A stretch of 64,000 nucleotides of DNA from Gammaproteobacteria bacterium. Lineage in GTDB: Bacteria; Pseudomonadota; Gammaproteobacteria; Thiohalomonadales; Thiohalomonadaceae. The notes below the pieces were generated by a model. It was given only the letters and a program-made list of their open reading frames with translations, had not been told where the DNA came from and searched no databases. Position 1 is the stretch's first letter, and each line of letters opens with the position of its first letter. The translations under genes were made by a program, and so were the position numbers. Positions 16,321-28,203 of this stretch are shown piece after piece. Location: positions 1 through 64,000 of the forward strand of contig QKED01000076.1 in NCBI GenBank assembly GCA_003252455.1. Reading direction: 5' to 3'.

Positions 16321-16413
16321 TTATCACCCGCAAACGCGCGCTCCGGCGCGCGTTTGCATTTGTGCCCCACGCGTGCCAACAGGCCCGGCGGTCGCTGGGC
16401 CGAGGAGCTCTCC

Positions 16414-17028
16414 ATGGACGCCGATGCCCGGCGCACGATCCGCCGCGACATGCGCGCCGCGCGCCGCGCCCTCCCCCCCTGGCAGCAACGTCTGCACGCG
16501 CGCGACTTGGCGCGGCGGCTGATAGGCAGCGCGCTGTTTCGCCGTAGCCGTCACATCGCACTGTTCATCGCCGCCGACGGCGAGCCCGACCTCGCGCCGC
16601 TCATCGCCCAAGCCTGGGCCATGGGCAAGTGCCTCTATCTCCCGGTGCTCACGCCGGAGCGGCGTAACCGCCTCTGGTTCGCCCCGTATCGACGCGGCGA
16701 GCCGTTGCGGCTCAACCGCTTTCGCATCCCCGAACCTCGCGCCAACTGGTCACAGATGCGTCGCCCCTGGGCCATCGACCTGATCCTCACCCCATTGGTG
16801 GCATTCGACGCGCAGGGGCACCGCCTGGGCATGGGCGGCGGTTTCTACGACCGCACCCTGGCCTATCTGAGCCAGCGTCGACACTGGCGCAAACCGGCCC
16901 TGTTGGGGGTGGCCCACGCACTACAGCAGCACCCCGCCCTGCCCCACGCCGCGTGGGATATCCCCCTGCACGGCGTAGTGACCGAACGCGAGTTGCTCCT
17001 GAGTACCACACGGGGGGATAAAGATTAG
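16414..17028 (+). CDS. fthC: 5-formyltetrahydrofolate cyclo-ligase
   Basis: ATP-dependent conversion of 5-formyltetrahydrofolate to 5,10-methenyltetrahydrofolate. The family signature LGMGGGFYDRTLAY is present, with the N-terminal basic helix (RRDMRAARRALPP) that binds nucleotide. Starting at 16414 after GAGGAG gives 204 residues; an in-frame extension to 16354 reaches back toward the 6S RNA and is not favoured. Location after 6S RNA matches ygfA of E. coli, where the two are co-transcribed. Confidence 0.92.
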   Translation: MDADARRTIRRDMRAARRALPPWQQRLHARDLARRLIGSALFRRSRHIALFIAADGEPDLAPLIAQAWAMGKCLYLPVLTPERRNRLWFAPYRRGEPLRLNRFRIPEPRANWSQMRRPWAIDLILTPLVAFDAQGHRLGMGGGFYDRTLAYLSQRRHWRKPALLGVAHALQQHPALPHAAWDIPLHGVVTERELLLSTTRGDKD

Positions 17029-17114: not shown

Positions 17115-19208
17115 ATGAACCACGTTGTCCCCCCGTCGATGCCCACACGCGCACTCCTTCCGCTCGGCGTGCTCCTGCTGTTCCACACGGCGAGCCAGGC
17201 ACAGACCCTGGACGAGGCGGAGTACTTTCGCGACCTGCCGGTGGTCATCACCGCCACGCGTCTGCCGCAAAAACCGACCGAGTTACCGGCCGCGATCACC
17301 CTCATCGACCGCGAGATGATCGATGCCTCCGGCGCCACCGAGATCCCCGATGTGCTGCGCCTGGCCGCCGGATTTCAGGTCGGGCACTTCTGGGGCAACC
17401 TCACCTCGGTCACCTATCAAGGGATGAGCGACGAGTACGCGCGCCGCATGCAGGTGCTGATCGACGGACGCAGCATCTATCTGGCCGAGACGGGCGGGGT
17501 GAACTGGTCCGACATCCCCATCAGCCTCGCCGATGTGCACCACATCGAGGTGATCCGCGGCCCCAACGGCACCAGCTTCGGCAACAACGCCTTCCTCGGC
17601 ACCATCCACATCTTCACCTACCGCCCGGAGGAGGTGCTCGGTACCCTGGTGCAGCACACCTACGGTGACGACGGTCTACGCCGCACGACCCTGCGCCACG
17701 CCGAGAAGATCGACGCCTACCAATACCGCGTCACCCTGGAGCGGCAGAGTGACCAGGGTTACGACGACTACTACGAACCGGGCAACCGCTTCTGGCAGTT
17801 CTACGACGCCAAGGCCTCCACCACTCTCAACTACCGCGCCGAATACGTCCCCCAGACCAACGACCTGCTCACCGTGCAGCTCGGCGCACGTAGCGGCTAT
17901 CAACAGGAGGGGTACTACGGCAACCTGACCGAGGGGCCGCACGAGGACGAACACAAACGCTACTTCGCCCACGTGCGCTGGGCGCGCAAGCTGCTTGGCG
18001 GCAACGACCTGGAGGTCTCGCTCTACCACATCGACGCGGACTACAGCACCGTCTATCAGACCGCCCTGCTTTCGCAGATCTTCAACACCACCCCGGCCAA
18101 CATCCTCGCCCTCACCGGGCACAACGACCAGGCCATCAACCTCGACCGCAGCCTGCACACCGAGCGCTACGACCTGGAGCTGCAGCACCGCTTCAACCCC
18201 TGCAGTGGCTGCCGCTTCGTCTGGGGGCTGGAGGCACGCATGGACCGCGTCGACGGCTACGGCTACACCGGGACCACCGATGTACTGACCAACAACTTCA
18301 GCCGCGCCTTCCTGCACAGCGAGTGGCGTCTGGGTGCGGAGAGCCTGCTCAACCTCGGTGCTATGTACGAGCGCAGCGACCTGGGCGGAGACCTGGTCTC
18401 ACCGCGCATCGGCCTGCTGCACAACCTCAACCGCGAGCACACCGTGCGCATCGGCTGGACCCGTGCCTATCGCGCCCCGGTGATGATCGAGGAGTACGCC
18501 GACTACGCCGCACGTTATCCCGACGGTAGCGTCCTCGACCAGATCTGGTGGAGCCCTGGCGAGATCGACCCGGAGACCATCTCACGCACCGAGATCGGCC
18601 TCGCCGGTCAGGCGCAGAGCGGCCTCTGGCGCTACGACCTGAGCCTCTTCCGCAGCACCCTGCGCGACCTGATCAGCACCCCCACCGACCTCGCCTACGT
18701 GGAGCCCTACAGCTACCTCTGTGCGATCAACGGCCAGCTACACAACTTCTGTCGTTCCACCGTGGTGGGCAACGATGCCAGCGCCGAGGCCGAGGGCATC
18801 GAGCTACAGGCCTACCTCCACCCCAAGCCCGAGCAGCTCTTCAGCCTCGGCATCTCGCGCGTGCGGGCGGTGGATCACGGCATCCGCAACCTCAACCCCA
18901 CCGACCTCTACGACAACGAGCTCACCACCCCCGAGACCACCCTCTCTATGCTCATGGAGCAGGGCTTCGGCGCGGGCTATCGGCTGAGTATCGGCTACTA
19001 CATGATGAGTAATATGCTATTCATGGGCGGCGACGAGACCGGCCCCATCAGCCGTATCGACCTGCGCCTGGCGAAGCGTACCCGACTGTTCGGAAAGGCG
19101 GCCACCTTGGAGCTGATCTCACGCCACATCGGCGCGGACGATTTCGACTACATCTATCGCATCGAACAGAAGAACCGCACCTACCTGCGCCTGGGCATGA
19201 ATCTCTAA
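17115..19208 (+). CDS. TonB-dependent outer membrane receptor
   Basis: A 697-residue outer-membrane barrel with a plug. The signal peptide ends around SQAQ. The plug domain follows (TATRLPQKPTELPAAITLIDREMI, then DVLRLAAGFQVGHFWGN, VLIDGRSIY and VEVIRGP-like IEVIRGPNGTSFG), and then the beta-barrel, ending in a terminal aromatic-containing strand (YLRLGMNL). Similarity of the plug to vitamin B12/siderophore-type receptors is visible, but the ligand is unknown. It heads a three-gene run with a periplasmic ABC-type binding protein and a hybrid histidine kinase. No TonB, ExbB, ABC permease or ATPase gene is present, so a sensory use of the receptor is inferred. Confidence 0.9.
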   Translation: MNHVVPPSMPTRALLPLGVLLLFHTASQAQTLDEAEYFRDLPVVITATRLPQKPTELPAAITLIDREMIDASGATEIPDVLRLAAGFQVGHFWGNLTSVTYQGMSDEYARRMQVLIDGRSIYLAETGGVNWSDIPISLADVHHIEVIRGPNGTSFGNNAFLGTIHIFTYRPEEVLGTLVQHTYGDDGLRRTTLRHAEKIDAYQYRVTLERQSDQGYDDYYEPGNRFWQFYDAKASTTLNYRAEYVPQTNDLLTVQLGARSGYQQEGYYGNLTEGPHEDEHKRYFAHVRWARKLLGGNDLEVSLYHIDADYSTVYQTALLSQIFNTTPANILALTGHNDQAINLDRSLHTERYDLELQHRFNPCSGCRFVWGLEARMDRVDGYGYTGTTDVLTNNFSRAFLHSEWRLGAESLLNLGAMYERSDLGGDLVSPRIGLLHNLNREHTVRIGWTRAYRAPVMIEEYADYAARYPDGSVLDQIWWSPGEIDPETISRTEIGLAGQAQSGLWRYDLSLFRSTLRDLISTPTDLAYVEPYSYLCAINGQLHNFCRSTVVGNDASAEAEGIELQAYLHPKPEQLFSLGISRVRAVDHGIRNLNPTDLYDNELTTPETTLSMLMEQGFGAGYRLSIGYYMMSNMLFMGGDETGPISRIDLRLAKRTRLFGKAATLELISRHIGADDFDYIYRIEQKNRTYLRLGMNL

Positions 19209-19242
19209 CCCATAGGTCGCCGATGGCGTCTCAAGGAGTCAC

Positions 19243-20211
19243 ATGAAGCCTCAAGGAGTGAGCCAGATGGTCAAGGGCCTGACCCGCCGCGTGGGCCCCC
19301 TGCTACTGCTCTTGTGTAGCCAGTGGCCGCACGCCTTCGCCCTCGACCTGCTGCTGGTGGGGGAGCGCGAGGCCGCCCCTCATCAAGAGGTGGCCAATAG
19401 CCTGCTGGAGATACTCGACGCCGAGGGCAACGCGCTCGAACACCAGGTCGTGTGGCTCGATGAACTTGAGGCGGCACGCGCGGAGGGTACGCTACCCGAG
19501 GCACCGCTCCTGGTCACCATCGGTTATGACAGCGCCCTGGCACTGCGTGCGCAGCCCAGTCAGGCGATCCTGCACACCCTCATCTCCCCGGAACAGTTCG
19601 ACGAACTCTACCCCAGTGGTGCCCCGGCGCGGGTCGGCGCGCTCTTCTTTACCCAGCCGCTGGAGCGCCAGCTCAACCTCATCAGTCTGCTGCTACCCGA
19701 GCGCCGAGAGGTCCTCGCCCTACTCGGCCCGCGCAGCGGCAAGCAGTTGCCGGCCCTACTTCAGGGGGCGAACCAGCGCGGCATCCAACTGGAGACGGTG
19801 GAGCTGGTCGACGAGGCCGAACTGGAAGGGCTGCTGCGCGAGCACCTCAAGCCACGCCAAGTACTCTTCACCCCCGCCGACCCGAGCGTGGTCAATCGGC
19901 GTACTATTCAGACTCTGCTGCTCACCGCATTTCGCTCCGGCGCCCCGGTGGTCGGCTACTCCAATGCCATGGTCAAGGCGGGGGCACTCATGGCGGTGCA
20001 CACCACCCCGGAGATGATCGGCGAGGACGCGGCAGAGATCATCCGCCGCTGGTTCGCACAGGCGGGGACGACGCCCCTGCCACGGCGCAGCTCGAAGCGC
20101 TTCGAGGTCGCCGCCAACTACCAAGTCGACGAGTTACTGGATATGGGCCTACCGAAGCGAGAAGTACTCAGAGAACGGCTGCAACAGCTCGAAACGGAGC
20201 ACCAACCGTGA
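19243..20211 (+). CDS. ABC-type periplasmic binding protein (PF04392-like) without transporter
   Basis: A 322-residue exported protein: basic N-terminus, hydrophobic stretch PLLLLLCSQWPHAFA, then a Rossmann-type binding fold recognisable from LVTIGYDSALALR, VLALLGPRSGKQLPALL, RQVLFTPADPSVVNRRTIQTLLLTAFRSGAPVVGYSNAMVKAGALMAV. This last block is typical of the ABC substrate-binding family PF04392. There is no permease or ATPase gene. Two candidate ATGs (19243 and 19267) each have a copy of CTCAAGGAGT in front, so the start is ambiguous by 8 residues. It overlaps the hybrid kinase gene by 4 bp (GTGA), so the two are translationally coupled; I infer that the protein senses a ligand for that kinase. 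Confidence 0.8.
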   Translation: MKPQGVSQMVKGLTRRVGPLLLLLCSQWPHAFALDLLLVGEREAAPHQEVANSLLEILDAEGNALEHQVVWLDELEAARAEGTLPEAPLLVTIGYDSALALRAQPSQAILHTLISPEQFDELYPSGAPARVGALFFTQPLERQLNLISLLLPERREVLALLGPRSGKQLPALLQGANQRGIQLETVELVDEAELEGLLREHLKPRQVLFTPADPSVVNRRTIQTLLLTAFRSGAPVVGYSNAMVKAGALMAVHTTPEMIGEDAAEIIRRWFAQAGTTPLPRRSSKRFEVAANYQVDELLDMGLPKREVLRERLQQLETEHQP

Positions 20212-22523
20212 TCAAACAGACCATCCGCGCGCGCCTCTTCCTGCTCGCCCTGCTGCCCGCCGTGCTCGCCAGCGGCATGCTCTATTTCTACTTTCTCACC
20301 AGCCAGTTGCAACTGATCCGCGACAGTCTGGTGGAGGCTGGCACCAGCAGTGCCGAATACCTCGCCGTCGCCAGCGAGTGGCATCTGATCGCCAACAACC
20401 AAGAGGAGCTGATGCGTCTCACCACCCGCCTGCTGAAGCGTGACGACCTCAGTGGGATCGCCATGGTCATCGGGAAAAACTGGCGCATCCGCGAGGGGAG
20501 CTTCAAGGGCGCCCCGCCACCCAACACCGAGCACTGCCTCAACGACTCGCCAGCCCCCGTCCTCGACCAGATCGACTGGGACGAGCCACTGCTCTTCTGC
20601 AGCCCGATCGCGCCCAATTGGCTACAGGTGGACGATTTCGATACCGGTCCCACGCAGGCGGAGCTCGGCAGGGTGGTGATCCGCATGAGCGCAGACCACT
20701 ATCGCCAACTGCACCACGAGGCCCTGGCCCAGGCCACGCGCCTCGGCCTGGTGCTGTTTCTGGTGATGCTCGCCATCGCCTACCGCGTGGCGGACCAGAT
20801 CGCCCGCCCGCTGGTCGACCTCGCCCGCCTGGTCGGTGAGGTGGCCGATGGCGACCTCAACCGCCGCAGCGAGGTGCGCGGCCTCGGCGAGATCGGCGAC
20901 CTTCAGCGCGGCGTCAACCAGATGGTCGAGCACCTCGAAGCGAACCAACACGACCTGGAGGCACGCATCCAGGCGCGAACCGCCGAGCTGGAACAGCGCA
21001 ACCACGAACTGGACGAACAGCGCCAACTGGCGCAGCAGGCGAGCCAGGCCAAGAGTCAGTTCCTGGCGGTGATGAGCCACGAGATTCGCACCCCCATCAG
21101 CGGCGCCCTGGGCATGCTGGAGCTACTCGGCAAGACCGACCTCGACCGCCGCCAGCAGCTCTTCTTCAGTAACCTCTCACTGGAGGCGCGGGCGCTGAAG
21201 GCACTGATCGACGACATCCTCGACTTCTCGCGTATCGAGGCGGGCAAGATGCCCATCGAAGCGGCCCCCTTCAGCCCCGAAGAGGTGTGCAACGAGGTGG
21301 TCGGCATGCTCGCCCCCAACGCCCATCGCAAGGGGTTGGACATCAGTCTATTTATCGACCCGACCACGCCGGGCCAGGTGGTGGGCGACGCCCAGCGCCT
21401 GCGCCAGGTGCTCACCAACCTCACCTCCAACGCCATTAAATTCACCAGCAAGGGGCGTATCTGGGTGGAGCTGGTGCGCCTCGACGCCCCCAACGGGCAG
21501 GCACGCATGCGCTGCACCGTACACGACACCGGCATCGGCATGAGCGAAGAGCAGTTGCAGAACATCTTCGATGGCTTTACCCAGGCCGACACCTCGACCA
21601 ACCGCACCCATGGCGGCAGCGGCCTCGGCACCACCATCGCCAAACGCCTGGTGGAGCTGATGGGCGGCGAGATCGGCGTACGCAGCAAGAGCCAGGAGGG
21701 GAGCTGCTTCTGGTTCGAGTTGAGCTGGCCCTGCCTGGAAGAGGCGCCGCAGAAGGGCCCCGTGCGTGGGCGCATGGAGCTGCTGGAGCGAAACCCCGAG
21801 TGCGCCCACGCCACCACCAGCCTGCTCGAACGCGCCGGCTGGAGCGTGACCGTGCACACCAGCAGCGAGGGGCTCAAGGAGGCGCTGGAGCAACAGAAAA
21901 GCGACTGGGTCCTGCTCGCGGAGAACAGCAACGAGCCGCGCCACTACCCCCTTGCGGAGTGGCTCAGTGGCCACCTGCAGGGTTTGGGGACGCGCCTCTG
22001 TCACCTGATCCACTTCGGCAGTCCCATCGACACCAGCCTGTTCGACTACACCCTCTATAAACCGCTGCAGATGGAGGTGGTCGACGAGGTGTTCGGCGAC
22101 CATGCCCATGACCTGCCGAGCACGCCGAGCGATCAACCCGACGCCGAGCTGCGCCGGGCCCGCGTGCTCATCGCCGAGGATAGCCACATCAACGCACTGG
22201 CCCTGCGCAACTTCGTCGAGATGGCTGGTCACGAGGTGGAGGTGGTGGGAGACGGGCACGCGGTATTGGCACGCATGCGCAGTGGTGATTACGACCTGGT
22301 GTTCATGGACATGCGCATGCCGGTGCTCGACGGCCTAGAGGCGACCCGCCGCTGGCGCGAAGAGGAGCCTGCGGGGAGTCACCTCCCGATCATCGCCATC
22401 ACCGCCAACGCCACGGTGGAGGACCGCGACCTCTGCCTGGGCTCGGGGATGGACGACTTCCTGAGCAAACCGGTGACCCCCGTACAGGTGAGCGAGCTGA
22501 TCACCAAGTGGGCGCGTAGTTAG
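20208..22523 (+). CDS. Hybrid sensor histidine kinase with receiver domain (BarA-like architecture)
   Basis: A 771-residue membrane kinase. Two membrane helices (about 9-30 and 176-193) flank a periplasmic domain of about 145 residues with two cysteines (C110 and C131). Then come HAMP (about 196-250), a coiled coil, HisKA with H-box SHEIRTP (H291), HATPase (N-box LTSNAIKF; G-boxes), a degenerate receiver-like linker (about 530-640) and a C-terminal receiver with phospho-acceptor D701 in MDMRMPVLDG, T732 and K754. It lacks an Hpt domain, so an external phosphotransfer protein is expected. It is coupled to the binding-protein gene by a GTGA overlap. Confidence 0.9.
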   Translation: MIKQTIRARLFLLALLPAVLASGMLYFYFLTSQLQLIRDSLVEAGTSSAEYLAVASEWHLIANNQEELMRLTTRLLKRDDLSGIAMVIGKNWRIREGSFKGAPPPNTEHCLNDSPAPVLDQIDWDEPLLFCSPIAPNWLQVDDFDTGPTQAELGRVVIRMSADHYRQLHHEALAQATRLGLVLFLVMLAIAYRVADQIARPLVDLARLVGEVADGDLNRRSEVRGLGEIGDLQRGVNQMVEHLEANQHDLEARIQARTAELEQRNHELDEQRQLAQQASQAKSQFLAVMSHEIRTPISGALGMLELLGKTDLDRRQQLFFSNLSLEARALKALIDDILDFSRIEAGKMPIEAAPFSPEEVCNEVVGMLAPNAHRKGLDISLFIDPTTPGQVVGDAQRLRQVLTNLTSNAIKFTSKGRIWVELVRLDAPNGQARMRCTVHDTGIGMSEEQLQNIFDGFTQADTSTNRTHGGSGLGTTIAKRLVELMGGEIGVRSKSQEGSCFWFELSWPCLEEAPQKGPVRGRMELLERNPECAHATTSLLERAGWSVTVHTSSEGLKEALEQQKSDWVLLAENSNEPRHYPLAEWLSGHLQGLGTRLCHLIHFGSPIDTSLFDYTLYKPLQMEVVDEVFGDHAHDLPSTPSDQPDAELRRARVLIAEDSHINALALRNFVEMAGHEVEVVGDGHAVLARMRSGDYDLVFMDMRMPVLDGLEATRRWREEEPAGSHLPIIAITANATVEDRDLCLGSGMDDFLSKPVTPVQVSELITKWARS

Positions 22524-22553: not shown

Positions 22554-24806
22554 CTAGGCCTCGACCGTCACCTTGTCCACCCGCTGGAATCCGCGTGGCA
22601 GTTTGCTGCCGCGCCGCCCACGCTCCCCGGCATAGAACTCGATGTCGGTGGGCTTGAGGGTGAGGTGGCGCTTGCCGGCGTGGATCACCAACGACTGACC
22701 GGCGGCGAGTAGGGCCAGGGCCATGACGTAGTCCTCGCGCGCCGCCGCGCGCAGTGAGGAGATGCTGATGATGCGATTGCCCTTGCCGCGCGCCAGTCGC
22801 GGCAACTGCTGCACCGGGAAGATGAGTAGACGGCCCTCGTTGCTCACCGCCGCCAACAGCGCCCCCTGGTAGTCGGGCACCGGCATCGGCGTGAGCATGC
22901 GCGCGCCGTCGGGCAGGCGCAGTACCTGTTTGCCGACCTTCTGTCGCGCACTCAACTCTTCGAGGCTGACCACGAAACCGTAACCGGCGTCGCTGGCGAG
23001 CAGGTAGAGGTCATCGTCAGCCCCCATCAGCGCCGCCTCGAAGGTGGCACCATCCGGGGGTGAGAGACGCCCGGTGAGCGGTTCGCCATAGCCACGTGCG
23101 CTAGGGAAGGTGTGCGCCGGCAACGAGTAGGTGCGCCCGCTGGAGTCGATGAAGGTGGTGAGCTGGGTGCTCTTGCCGGTCACCGCCAGCCGGAACCCAT
23201 CACCCGCCTTGTAGGCGAGACCGGCGCCGTCCAGGTCGTGGCCCTTGCCGGCACGCACCCAGCCTCGTTCCGAGAGCACCACGGTGATCGGTTCGCTCTG
23301 CACCAGGGCGCTCTCGTCGAGGGCCTTGGCCGCCATCCCCTCCACCAGCGGTGAGCGGCGTGCATCGCCGAACTTCTCCGCGTCCGCCTCCAACTCCTTG
23401 CGCACCAGGGTACGCATGCGCCGCTCAGAGGCGAGGGTCTTGGTCAGCCAGTCGCGCTCCTTCTCCAGCTCCGCCTGTTCGCCGCGGATCTTCATCTCCT
23501 CCAGCTTGGCCAGGTGGCGCAGTTTGGTCTCAAGGATCGCCTCGGCCTGGATATCACTGAGGCCGAAGGTGGCCATCAACACCGGCTTGGGCTCCTCTTC
23601 GGTGCGGATGATGCGGATCACCTCGTCGAGGTTGAGGTAGGCGATGAGCAGACCGGCGAGGATATGCAGGCGCTTCTCGACCTTGTCGAGGTGGTACTCC
23701 AGGCGCCGACGTACGGTGTCGATGCGAAACTCCAGCCACTCCACCAGCAGGGTGCGCAGGTCCTTCACGCGCGGGCGCCCATCGAGGCCGATGAGGTTGA
23801 TGTTGACCCGATAGCTGCGCTCCAGGTCGGTGGTGGCAAAGAGGTGGGCCATCAGTGCCTCGGCATCGACCTTGCGCGAGCTGGGGACGATCACCAGACG
23901 GGTCGGGTTCTCGTGATCCGACTCGTCGCGCAGGTCCTCCACCAGGGGCAGCTTTTTGGCCTGCATCTGCGCGGCGATCTGCTCTAGGATCTTCGCCCCG
24001 GAGACCTGATACGGCAGTTCGGTGATGACGATGTCGCCCTCCTCCCGCTCCCACTTGGCACGTTGGCGCAGGGAGCCACTACCGGTACGGTAGATTTTCT
24101 GCAGTTCGTCACGCGGGGTGATGATCTCCGCCCCGCTGGGGTAGTCGGGGCCCGGGAGGTGTTCGAGCAGCTCGTCGAGGCCGGTGGTGGGCCGTTCGAG
24201 TAGGGCGACGCAGGCGTTGACCACCTCGCGCAGGTTGTGCGGCGGGATATCGGTGGCCATGCCCACGGCGATGCCGGTGATGCCGTTGAGCAGCACGTGC
24301 GGGACCCGCGCCGGGAGGATGGCGGGCTCCTCCAGGGTGCCGTCGAAGTTGGGCACCCACTCCACCGTGCCCTGCCCCACCTCGCTGAGCAGCAGCTCGG
24401 CGAAGGGTGAGAGGCGCGACTCGGTGTAACGCATGGCGGCGAAGGATTTGGGGTCGTCCTGTGAGCCCCAGTTACCCTGCCCATCGATGAGCGGGTAGCG
24501 GTAACTGAAGGGCTGCGCCATCAGCACCATAGCCTCGTAACAGGCGGAGTCGCCGTGGGGGTGGAACTTACCCAACACATCACCGACCGTGCGTGCCGAC
24601 TTCTTGTACTTGGCGGTGGCCTTCAGACCCAGCTCGGACATGGCGTAGACGATGCGCCGCTGCACCGGCTTGAGCCCGTCGCCGATATGCGGCAGGGCAC
24701 GGTCCATGATCACGTACATGGAGTAGTCGAGATAGGCCTTCTCGGTAAAGGCGGCGAGGGGGAGTTGCTCGACCCCCTCGTAGCTGATGGCGTTGGCTGG
24801 ACTCAC
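22554..24806 (-). CDS. parC: DNA topoisomerase IV subunit A
   Basis: Subunit of the type IIA topoisomerase that decatenates daughter chromosomes. The DNA-breaking tyrosine is Y127 ([15 protein letters not shown]). The quinolone-resistance region reads [13 protein letters not shown] with S87 and E91, equivalent to E. coli S80 and E84, so the wild-type residues are retained. The 750-residue length, the ParC-type N-terminal domain and a shorter C-terminal blade region (rather than the longer GyrA box) favour ParC over GyrA. parE is not within the window. It converges with the hybrid kinase. Confidence 0.93.
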
Positions 24807-25069: not shown

Positions 25070-26020
25070 TCAGCCATTGGGCAGGTAGAGTCCGCTCTGC
25101 TCCAGCACGTCGAGCGACTGCAGATAGCTATCGCTGGCGCCGGTACGCAGCAGATTGAGGCCGTACTGATACGGCAGGGTACCGGAGTCGCGGATCACCT
25201 TTTGTCCAGCGGCAGAGAGGGCGAAGTCGACGAAGGCCTTGACCTGCGCATCACGCTTGTAGTCGGCCGGTGCAGTGAGGAAGAGGATGCGATATAGGGC
25301 GTACTTGCCGCTGCTGAGGTTCTGCATGGTCGGCGCCTGACCATCGAGGTTGAGCATGCGCACCGTACGGTGGCGGCTGCTGCTCACGCCGCTGACGGCA
25401 AAGGCGTCCACGTCCCCCTCCACGGCCTCCTCGATCTTGCCCGAGGAGGCGAGGCGCTGAGCGTCGGCACTGAAGACCTGGTCCGGGTCGTTGAACAACT
25501 GCTGACGCAGGGTCAGCCCCACACCCGAGATACCCCCGGCGCGCACATAGAGGTGGATGCGCCGATCCGGCGGGGCCACTGGGTTGAGCTGGAACCAGTG
25601 GGTGATCTGTCCGGTGAGGATGGCACGCAGTTGTTCACGCGAGACGTCACTCACCCAGGGATTGCGCGGATGCACGATGGGAGTGAGCACATCCCAGCCC
25701 ACTGGGATCATCGCCACCGCCGCCTCGGCACTATGCACCTGGTAGTAGCCATCGCCATCCTTGAACACCAGCGGCATACGACAGCTACCACCCAGGTCAC
25801 TCTGCCCCTCCGCCACGTCACGGATCCCCTTGGTCGCCCCGCCCCCTCTGAGCACCAACTCGACGCCACTCTTGGCCTTATAGGCCGCGGCCAACTCCTC
25901 CATGAAACCGAGCTTGGCGATACCGCAACCGGTCCACACCAACTGGCGGGCGTGTCCCACCTGGCTCAGGGTTAACAGGGTGACAATAGTCACACACTTG
26001 AACAGTTTGGCTCCCAGCAT
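25070..26020 (-). CDS. PstS-like periplasmic substrate-binding protein, orphan
   Basis: A 316-residue exported protein with a signal peptide (hydrophobic TIVTLLTLSQVGHA) and a PBP-like (PF12849-type) fold. The domain includes GGGATKGIRDVAEGQSDLGGSCR, a ligand-contact segment similar to that of phosphate- or oxyanion-binding proteins. The segments AVAMIPVGWDVLTPIVHPRNP and LTGQITHW match the PstS-type lobe that helps form the oxyanion pocket. No pst genes are adjacent, so phosphate transport is not claimed; phosphate or another anion as ligand is plausible. It sits alone between parC and a large intergenic region. Confidence 0.8.
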   Translation of the reverse strand: MLGAKLFKCVTIVTLLTLSQVGHARQLVWTGCGIAKLGFMEELAAAYKAKSGVELVLRGGGATKGIRDVAEGQSDLGGSCRMPLVFKDGDGYYQVHSAEAAVAMIPVGWDVLTPIVHPRNPWVSDVSREQLRAILTGQITHWFQLNPVAPPDRRIHLYVRAGGISGVGLTLRQQLFNDPDQVFSADAQRLASSGKIEEAVEGDVDAFAVSGVSSSRHRTVRMLNLDGQAPTMQNLSSGKYALYRILFLTAPADYKRDAQVKAFVDFALSAAGQKVIRDSGTLPYQYGLNLLRTGASDSYLQSLDVLEQSGLYLPNG

Positions 26021-26599
26021 GTCGGCGCTCCCCTTCGGTGAATGGGCCCTGGGTGATAACCCCAGAGACGGGGAGGAATCTAGGCGTAGCGGGGCGCCAT
26101 TACCAGTACACCAGATAGACCTCGGTCACATTTTTACGAATTATACCTACATCAAGTCCGACGCTTGTAAGCCTCGCTTAAGCAACACGTCGTCATTCCC
26201 ATCGTGCAGGTAAGAAATAGCCGACATCCTATGGATATGCGTCATTAATATATTGATTTAACGGTCGGTAACCCTGCGCACACTAACTCGATGCGAAAGC
26301 GCACTCACGCTCTGCACCTCAGAGCAAGAGCCCCGCCAGGCCAGCCAAACCCACAGAGGGGACGACGCTTGATGTAGGTCAATTTATACGCCTACTAGGT
26401 CATCTGTCGGCTTGGTCATCGTTGGCCGGGAACGGTCGACCTCGGACAGCGTCGCCGTGCAGACATAGACAGGGTAGTCCCTGTCCCTGCGTCGCTCTTG
26501 GCGGCAAACCTGGGCGCTGGCCCTGCCCCCTTCGCAGCAGCCAGCGGCCAATGCCCATCTGGTGTAGAATCGCCCCTTTCCACTCAACGCCCCTTTGTC
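26021..26599. other. 579-bp intergenic region with FNR/ANR-type box and AT-rich segment
   Basis: No gene is visible. The region is noticeably AT-richer than the rest, particularly 26130-26270. It contains the inverted repeat ACCTACATCAAG (26145-26156) and CTTGATGTAGGT (26368-26379), an FNR/ANR-like box at 26369-26382 and a small hairpin GACAGGG/CCCTGTC (26468-26474 with 26479-26485). A TAGAAT (26565-26570) 30 bp before prfC could be a -10, but the -35 is poor. Confidence 0.5.
26369..26382. promoter_or_regulatory. Candidate FNR/ANR/DNR-family binding site
   Basis: TTGATGTAGGTCAA matches the dyad TTGAT-N4-GTCAA, close to the FNR/ANR consensus TTGAT-N4-ATCAA with one change in the second half. 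Neither flanking gene (PstS-like at 26020, prfC at 26600) is an obvious oxygen-regulated target. The box is 217 bp from prfC and 348 bp from the PstS-like gene. Confidence 0.4.
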
Positions 26600-28183
<1,584 letters not shown>

Positions 28184-28203
28184 TCGGCGGGCCACAAACG
28201 TAA

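Follow-up and report, generated by a model that had tools for sequence, protein, structure and literature searches.

The question raised by this locus is what is accomplished by a TonB-dependent receptor (T), a periplasmic binding protein (S) and a hybrid histidine kinase (K) that are encoded one after the other in a gammaproteobacterial genome. The DNA analysed is a stretch of 64,000 nucleotides (positions 1 to 64,000 of contig QKED01000076.1), referred to below as the window. The reading favoured here, at a probability of roughly two in three and based on gene order, domains and trees, is that the trio forms an envelope-spanning sensory unit, in which T would import a ligand, S would bind it and S would set the activity of K; the trio probably carries a signal across the cell envelope.

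The trio in the window

T, S and K are collinear on the plus strand (Table 1). The order of the genes and the GTGA overlap between S and K had been described in the initial annotation, with which the open reading frame (ORF) positions and Pfam domains agree; the flanking ORFs agree with its statement that no ABC permease, ATPase or TonB gene is adjacent, and genes for FecR or a response regulator do not directly adjoin the trio either. S scored 40.7 bits against the Pfam family PF04392 (cut-off 25.9), and the Pfam domains of K are sCache_4, HAMP, HisKA, HATPase_c and one receiver. Further along the window, a PBP_like_2 protein (25070-26020, minus strand) adjoins a 603-aa ORF without a Pfam match (26384-28195, minus strand).

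Table 1. Features of the trio and its neighbours in the window
Feature	Position	Strand	Basis
T: TonB-dependent receptor, 697 aa	17115-19208	+	PF07715 (Plug) 62 bits, PF00593 (barrel) 79 bits
TonB-box-like stretch LPVVITAT in T	17235-17258	+	by eye in translation
S: periplasmic binding protein, 322 aa, signal-peptide-like N-terminus	19243-20211	+	PF04392
GTGA overlap, S stop / K start	20208-20211	+	stop TGA 20209-20211, start GTG 20208
K: BarA/GacS-type hybrid histidine kinase, 771 aa, no Hpt	20208-22523	+	Pfam, NCBIfam
K periplasmic sCache_4 (PDC) domain	20316-20717	+	PF09984, structure model, fold matches
K HAMP domain	20787-20942	+	Pfam
K HisKA + HATPase_c	21048-21722	+	Pfam
K receiver domain	22164-22499	+	Pfam
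5-formyltetrahydrofolate cyclo-ligase-like ORF, trio neighbour	16354-17028	+	judged from sequence
parC-like topoisomerase ORF, trio neighbour	22554-24806	-	judged from sequence

Regarding T, the nearest solved structures were Cir and BtuB, and the LPVVITAT stretch resembles the TonB box of BtuB. Only the Plug and barrel domains were found in T by Pfam, with no STN signalling domain. Since T lacks STN and carries a TonB-box-like stretch, it should act as an importer into the periplasm and not as a transducer of the FecA type; the latter reading was rejected, and neither neighbour of the trio looks like FecR or FecI. TonB genes are present elsewhere in the genome, as are two other T-like regions.

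The AlphaFold model of S (pLDDT 92.4) has the two-lobed fold of a binding protein and matched CD0873 in its open state best (Z 24.2, rmsd 3.4, 271 aligned), followed by 3lkv and by tryptophan-bound 3lft; among solved PF04392 relatives whose ligand is named, 3lft is the nearest. The invariant residues of S are Q138, P139 and R142, of which Q138 and R142 differ from 3lkv in a profile alignment. The model of the K input (pLDDT 82.9) has the PDC fold; many matches tied, WalK, CitA and LuxQ among them.

Conservation of the unit and the sensor that accompanies it

Homologues of S (E up to 1e-10) were present in 72 of 369 genomes of the class Gammaproteobacteria. Of the loci with enough sequence for each count, 45 of 52 have T upstream of the S gene and 53 of 58 have a membrane sensor downstream of it; both partners are present in 40 of 50. 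A second set of 80 loci from named hosts gave similar tallies for T (67/76), the sensor (71/75) and both (61/72); this set shares part of its loci with the class sample, so that neither tally is an independent check on the other. Among the hosts are Rhodoferax, Methylotenera, Thiobacillus, Denitromonas, Sedimenticola and Marinobacterium, and the unit is present in Betaproteobacteria, too. At locus L059 an additional sensor fell outside the distance allowed in the tally, and at L073 the sensor lies upstream rather than downstream. Across 141 loci, a motif test (Walker A plus signature) of the 4 kb around S detected no ABC ATPase-like ORF on the strand of S. The two observations named in the initial annotation as speaking against a sensory unit, namely a trio not conserved as a set and S genes that elsewhere sit with ABC permeases, were thus not made.

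T is optional: some loci have only S and K (e.g., L102, L104, L105, L138, L168 and L182) and two, L089 and L099, have T and S without K. At L089, trmO, fabA, ketoacyl synthase and rlmL-like genes follow T and S, near the site that T-S-K occupies at L308 and L309; at L326 the gene order is S-K-T, with the receptor downstream of the kinase. The flanks of the unit vary (fabAB, rlmD/cysM, acpS/pdxJ or parC-like genes) and are also conserved in some lineages. Exactly 4 nt are shared by S and K in 79 of 131 pairs. Longer open frames were inspected for S-K gene fusions as proof of contact and were start-site artefacts; no fusion was found.

Among 20 other PF04392 loci of the same class, an ABC permease plus ATPase accompanied the PF04392 gene in 3, whereas a kinase or GGDEF-EAL sensor adjoined it in about 12; the initial annotation's view that PF04392 proteins normally serve ABC importers is therefore not borne out in Gammaproteobacteria. 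T adjoined the PF04392 gene in only one of these 20 loci (L287, probably itself a trio) as compared with 45 of 52 in the S subfamily, which makes the association of T with S more than chance. PF04392 genes with ABC permease and ATPase occur at L282, L284, L286 and L319-L322. Four ABC-linked loci outside the 20 stand near the bottom of the S profile's score range, with 82-96 bits versus 200-365 for the S genes of the unit. In the window genome, no ABC genes were seen beside either of the two PF04392 genes. The second of these (L245, 3388-7914) directly precedes a dCache-HAMP-PAS-GGDEF-EAL protein. The same contig (11801-15001) encodes a PF12974 phosphonate-type binding protein with a 4-nt overlap to an sCache_3-HAMP-PAS-GGDEF protein, which is another transporter-less pair of binding protein and sensor, from a different family.

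All 131 partners of S resemble the first 245 residues of the window K, and for 117 of them the similarity extends over 100 or more periplasmic residues. The outputs comprise 104 histidine kinases, 22 GGDEF-EAL proteins and five short, truncated or other proteins, one of which (L182) has a PAS-GGDEF-like output as judged from sequence; ten partners were checked with Pfam. The output type changes at least five times on the S tree, while the sensors keep a related TM-sCache_4-TM-HAMP input. Because the input is kept and the output exchanged, the conserved partner of S is a periplasmic input and not a transporter. This pattern should be expected of a signalling front end, and the modularity of the output lends independent support to an action of S on the sensor. 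The relay from S to a hybrid kinase proposed initially is therefore upheld as to the conserved trio, the missing ABC genes and the retained input, but has to be widened, as a kinase is only one output besides GGDEF-EAL and PAS-GGDEF.

Relation of K to BarA and GacS

By its sequence K is a BarA/GacS-type kinase, a point absent from the initial annotation. It matches the layout TM-sCache_4/PDC-TM-HAMP-HisKA-HATPase-REC, and the best NCBIfam model was NF008318 (BarA) with 478.8 bits, below the cut-off of 890. E. coli BarA found its best match in the window genome in K, over BarA residues 4 to 785 and thus including the N-terminus, with a small lead (331 vs 325 bits). Pfam gave no match to a C-terminal Hpt domain in K, whereas Hpt was found in the relatives at L061, L064, L073 and L184; the genes of the BarA locus (rlmD/relA/cysM or acpS/pdxJ/recO), present for many relatives, are absent from the differing flanks of the window K. 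As Hpt, score and locus all fail to identify K as BarA, it is called BarA/GacS-type.

In E. coli, relA, rlmD and barA are neighbours. A gene for rlmD, relA, mazG, cysM or a PolB-type exonuclease lies near S in about 45 loci and acpS/pdxJ/recO/era in 25, with both groups in 21; the same kind of locus without T and S was observed among L216-L230, L232, L233 and L235. In a tree of kinase cores, the solo BarA/GacS genes, which lack T and S, branch from among the trio kinases, with seven state changes. A single origin of the solo genes was rejected (p-AU 0.0003, on a quick tree with the group chosen by lack of S), and the direction in which T and S changed, read as loss or gain, depends on the placing of the root, for which five kinases from a single genome served. 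The window K lies in a strongly supported cluster that comprises 13 trio kinases, most of them from its own family; kinases of this family measure 767-810 aa.

The signal of GacS is still described as unknown (PMC7695008, PMC8639471), and E. coli BarA senses acetate directly through its sCache_4-type domain (PMC8639471), so that this domain can work without S. A tentative reading, rather doubtful at present, is that the original input of BarA/GacS-type kinases was a ligand brought in through a dedicated TonB receptor and presented by a binding protein, not a free small molecule. On this reading, BarA of E. coli and GacS of Pseudomonas would be reduced descendants, the front end having been lost several times, and enzymes of c-di-GMP turnover would have been coupled to that front end as well.

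Proposed relay, alternatives and known systems

In the proposed unit, T would move the ligand over the outer membrane using TonB energy, S would bind it in the periplasm, and S, either ligand-bound or ligand-free, would dock on the sCache_4 domain of K and set its balance of kinase and phosphatase; import into the cytoplasm by the trio would not be needed. The likely downstream partner of K would be the single GacA/UvrY-type regulator, for which one UvrY orthologue (55% identity) was found in the window genome beside uvrC (the latter judged from sequence). Since K has no Hpt domain, a phosphorelay to GacA would need a separate Hpt protein, through which K may reach it. That S touches K, which way control runs, that T supplies the ligand and that GacA is the target are predictions from gene order, domains and trees.

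An unlikely alternative, if consistent with the lineages that have S and K without T, is that only S and K form the unit proper. T would then be an uptake gene within their regulon, and K, together with S, would sense a ligand that enters otherwise and control the operon including T. The gap between T and S, which reaches about 150 nt whereas S and K mostly overlap, fits such a division; T nevertheless precedes S in most loci despite very different flanks, and scores as one subfamily across them. That the trio stays together passively, because the locus rearranges slowly, is highly improbable: flanks are conserved too in some lineages, but the trio occurs beside many different flanks, its order survives swaps of the output domain, and most S-K pairs overlap by 4 nt.

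As a component of an ABC importer, S was rejected, given that neither the window trio has a linked permease or ATPase nor the 141 loci an ABC ATPase nearby. An unlinked importer could still use S. In a wider form of this idea, T and S capture a nutrient for an importer encoded elsewhere and K senses the ligand directly by its Cache pocket and regulates the pair. ABC-linked PF04392 genes do exist and small-ligand binding is common in Cache domains; the 141 loci, the lower profile scores of the ABC-linked relatives and the surroundings of both PF04392 genes of the window genome nonetheless make it quite improbable.

Transporter-less periplasmic binding proteins that control a hybrid kinase through its periplasmic domain are represented by LuxP-LuxQ and TorT-TorS, and in Vibrio cholerae the transporter-less NspS is encoded beside the GGDEF-EAL sensor MbaA. 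The trio is similar to LuxP-LuxQ in that the S gene adjoins a sensor and no transporter, with LuxP and LuxQ among the fold matches, but it uses the PF04392 and sCache_4 families, and LuxPQ and TorTS have no dedicated TonB receptor. The GGDEF-EAL versions of the unit are comparable to NspS-MbaA, in which the binding protein is of another family and a TonB receptor is lacking. With FecA-FecR-FecI the trio shares a TonB receptor that would take part in signalling; T is without Pfam STN, however, and in place of an anti-sigma factor the inner membrane has a sensor accompanied by a binding protein. BarA/GacS corresponds in the domain order of input and kinase core, the chromosomal locus of many relatives and the kinase tree, and differs in that T and S are missing from the locus of E. 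coli BarA as from the remaining solo loci, whereas the window K lacks Hpt and lies outside the BarA locus.

At L308 and L309, T-S-K directly precedes fabA-fabB-like genes. In P. aeruginosa, the gene pair PA1612-PA1611 (one operon) lies just upstream of fabAB (PMC3462791); its member PA1611, a hybrid kinase related to GacS, acts on RetS (PMC4866733). The match to L308 and L309 is positional only. One published receptor survey did not confirm PA1613 as a TonB receptor, and a description of the trio was not found in the open-access literature, mostly represented by titles and abstracts.

The trio would be a signalling route from outer to inner membrane different from FecA-FecR, and an example of a single periplasmic front end that can feed into a phosphorelay or, alternatively, into the turnover of c-di-GMP. 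It would also offer a new handle on the signals of GacS-type kinases, as many GacS relatives in the BarA/GacS locus have their own receptor and binding protein, and hence purifiable proteins for ligand fishing.
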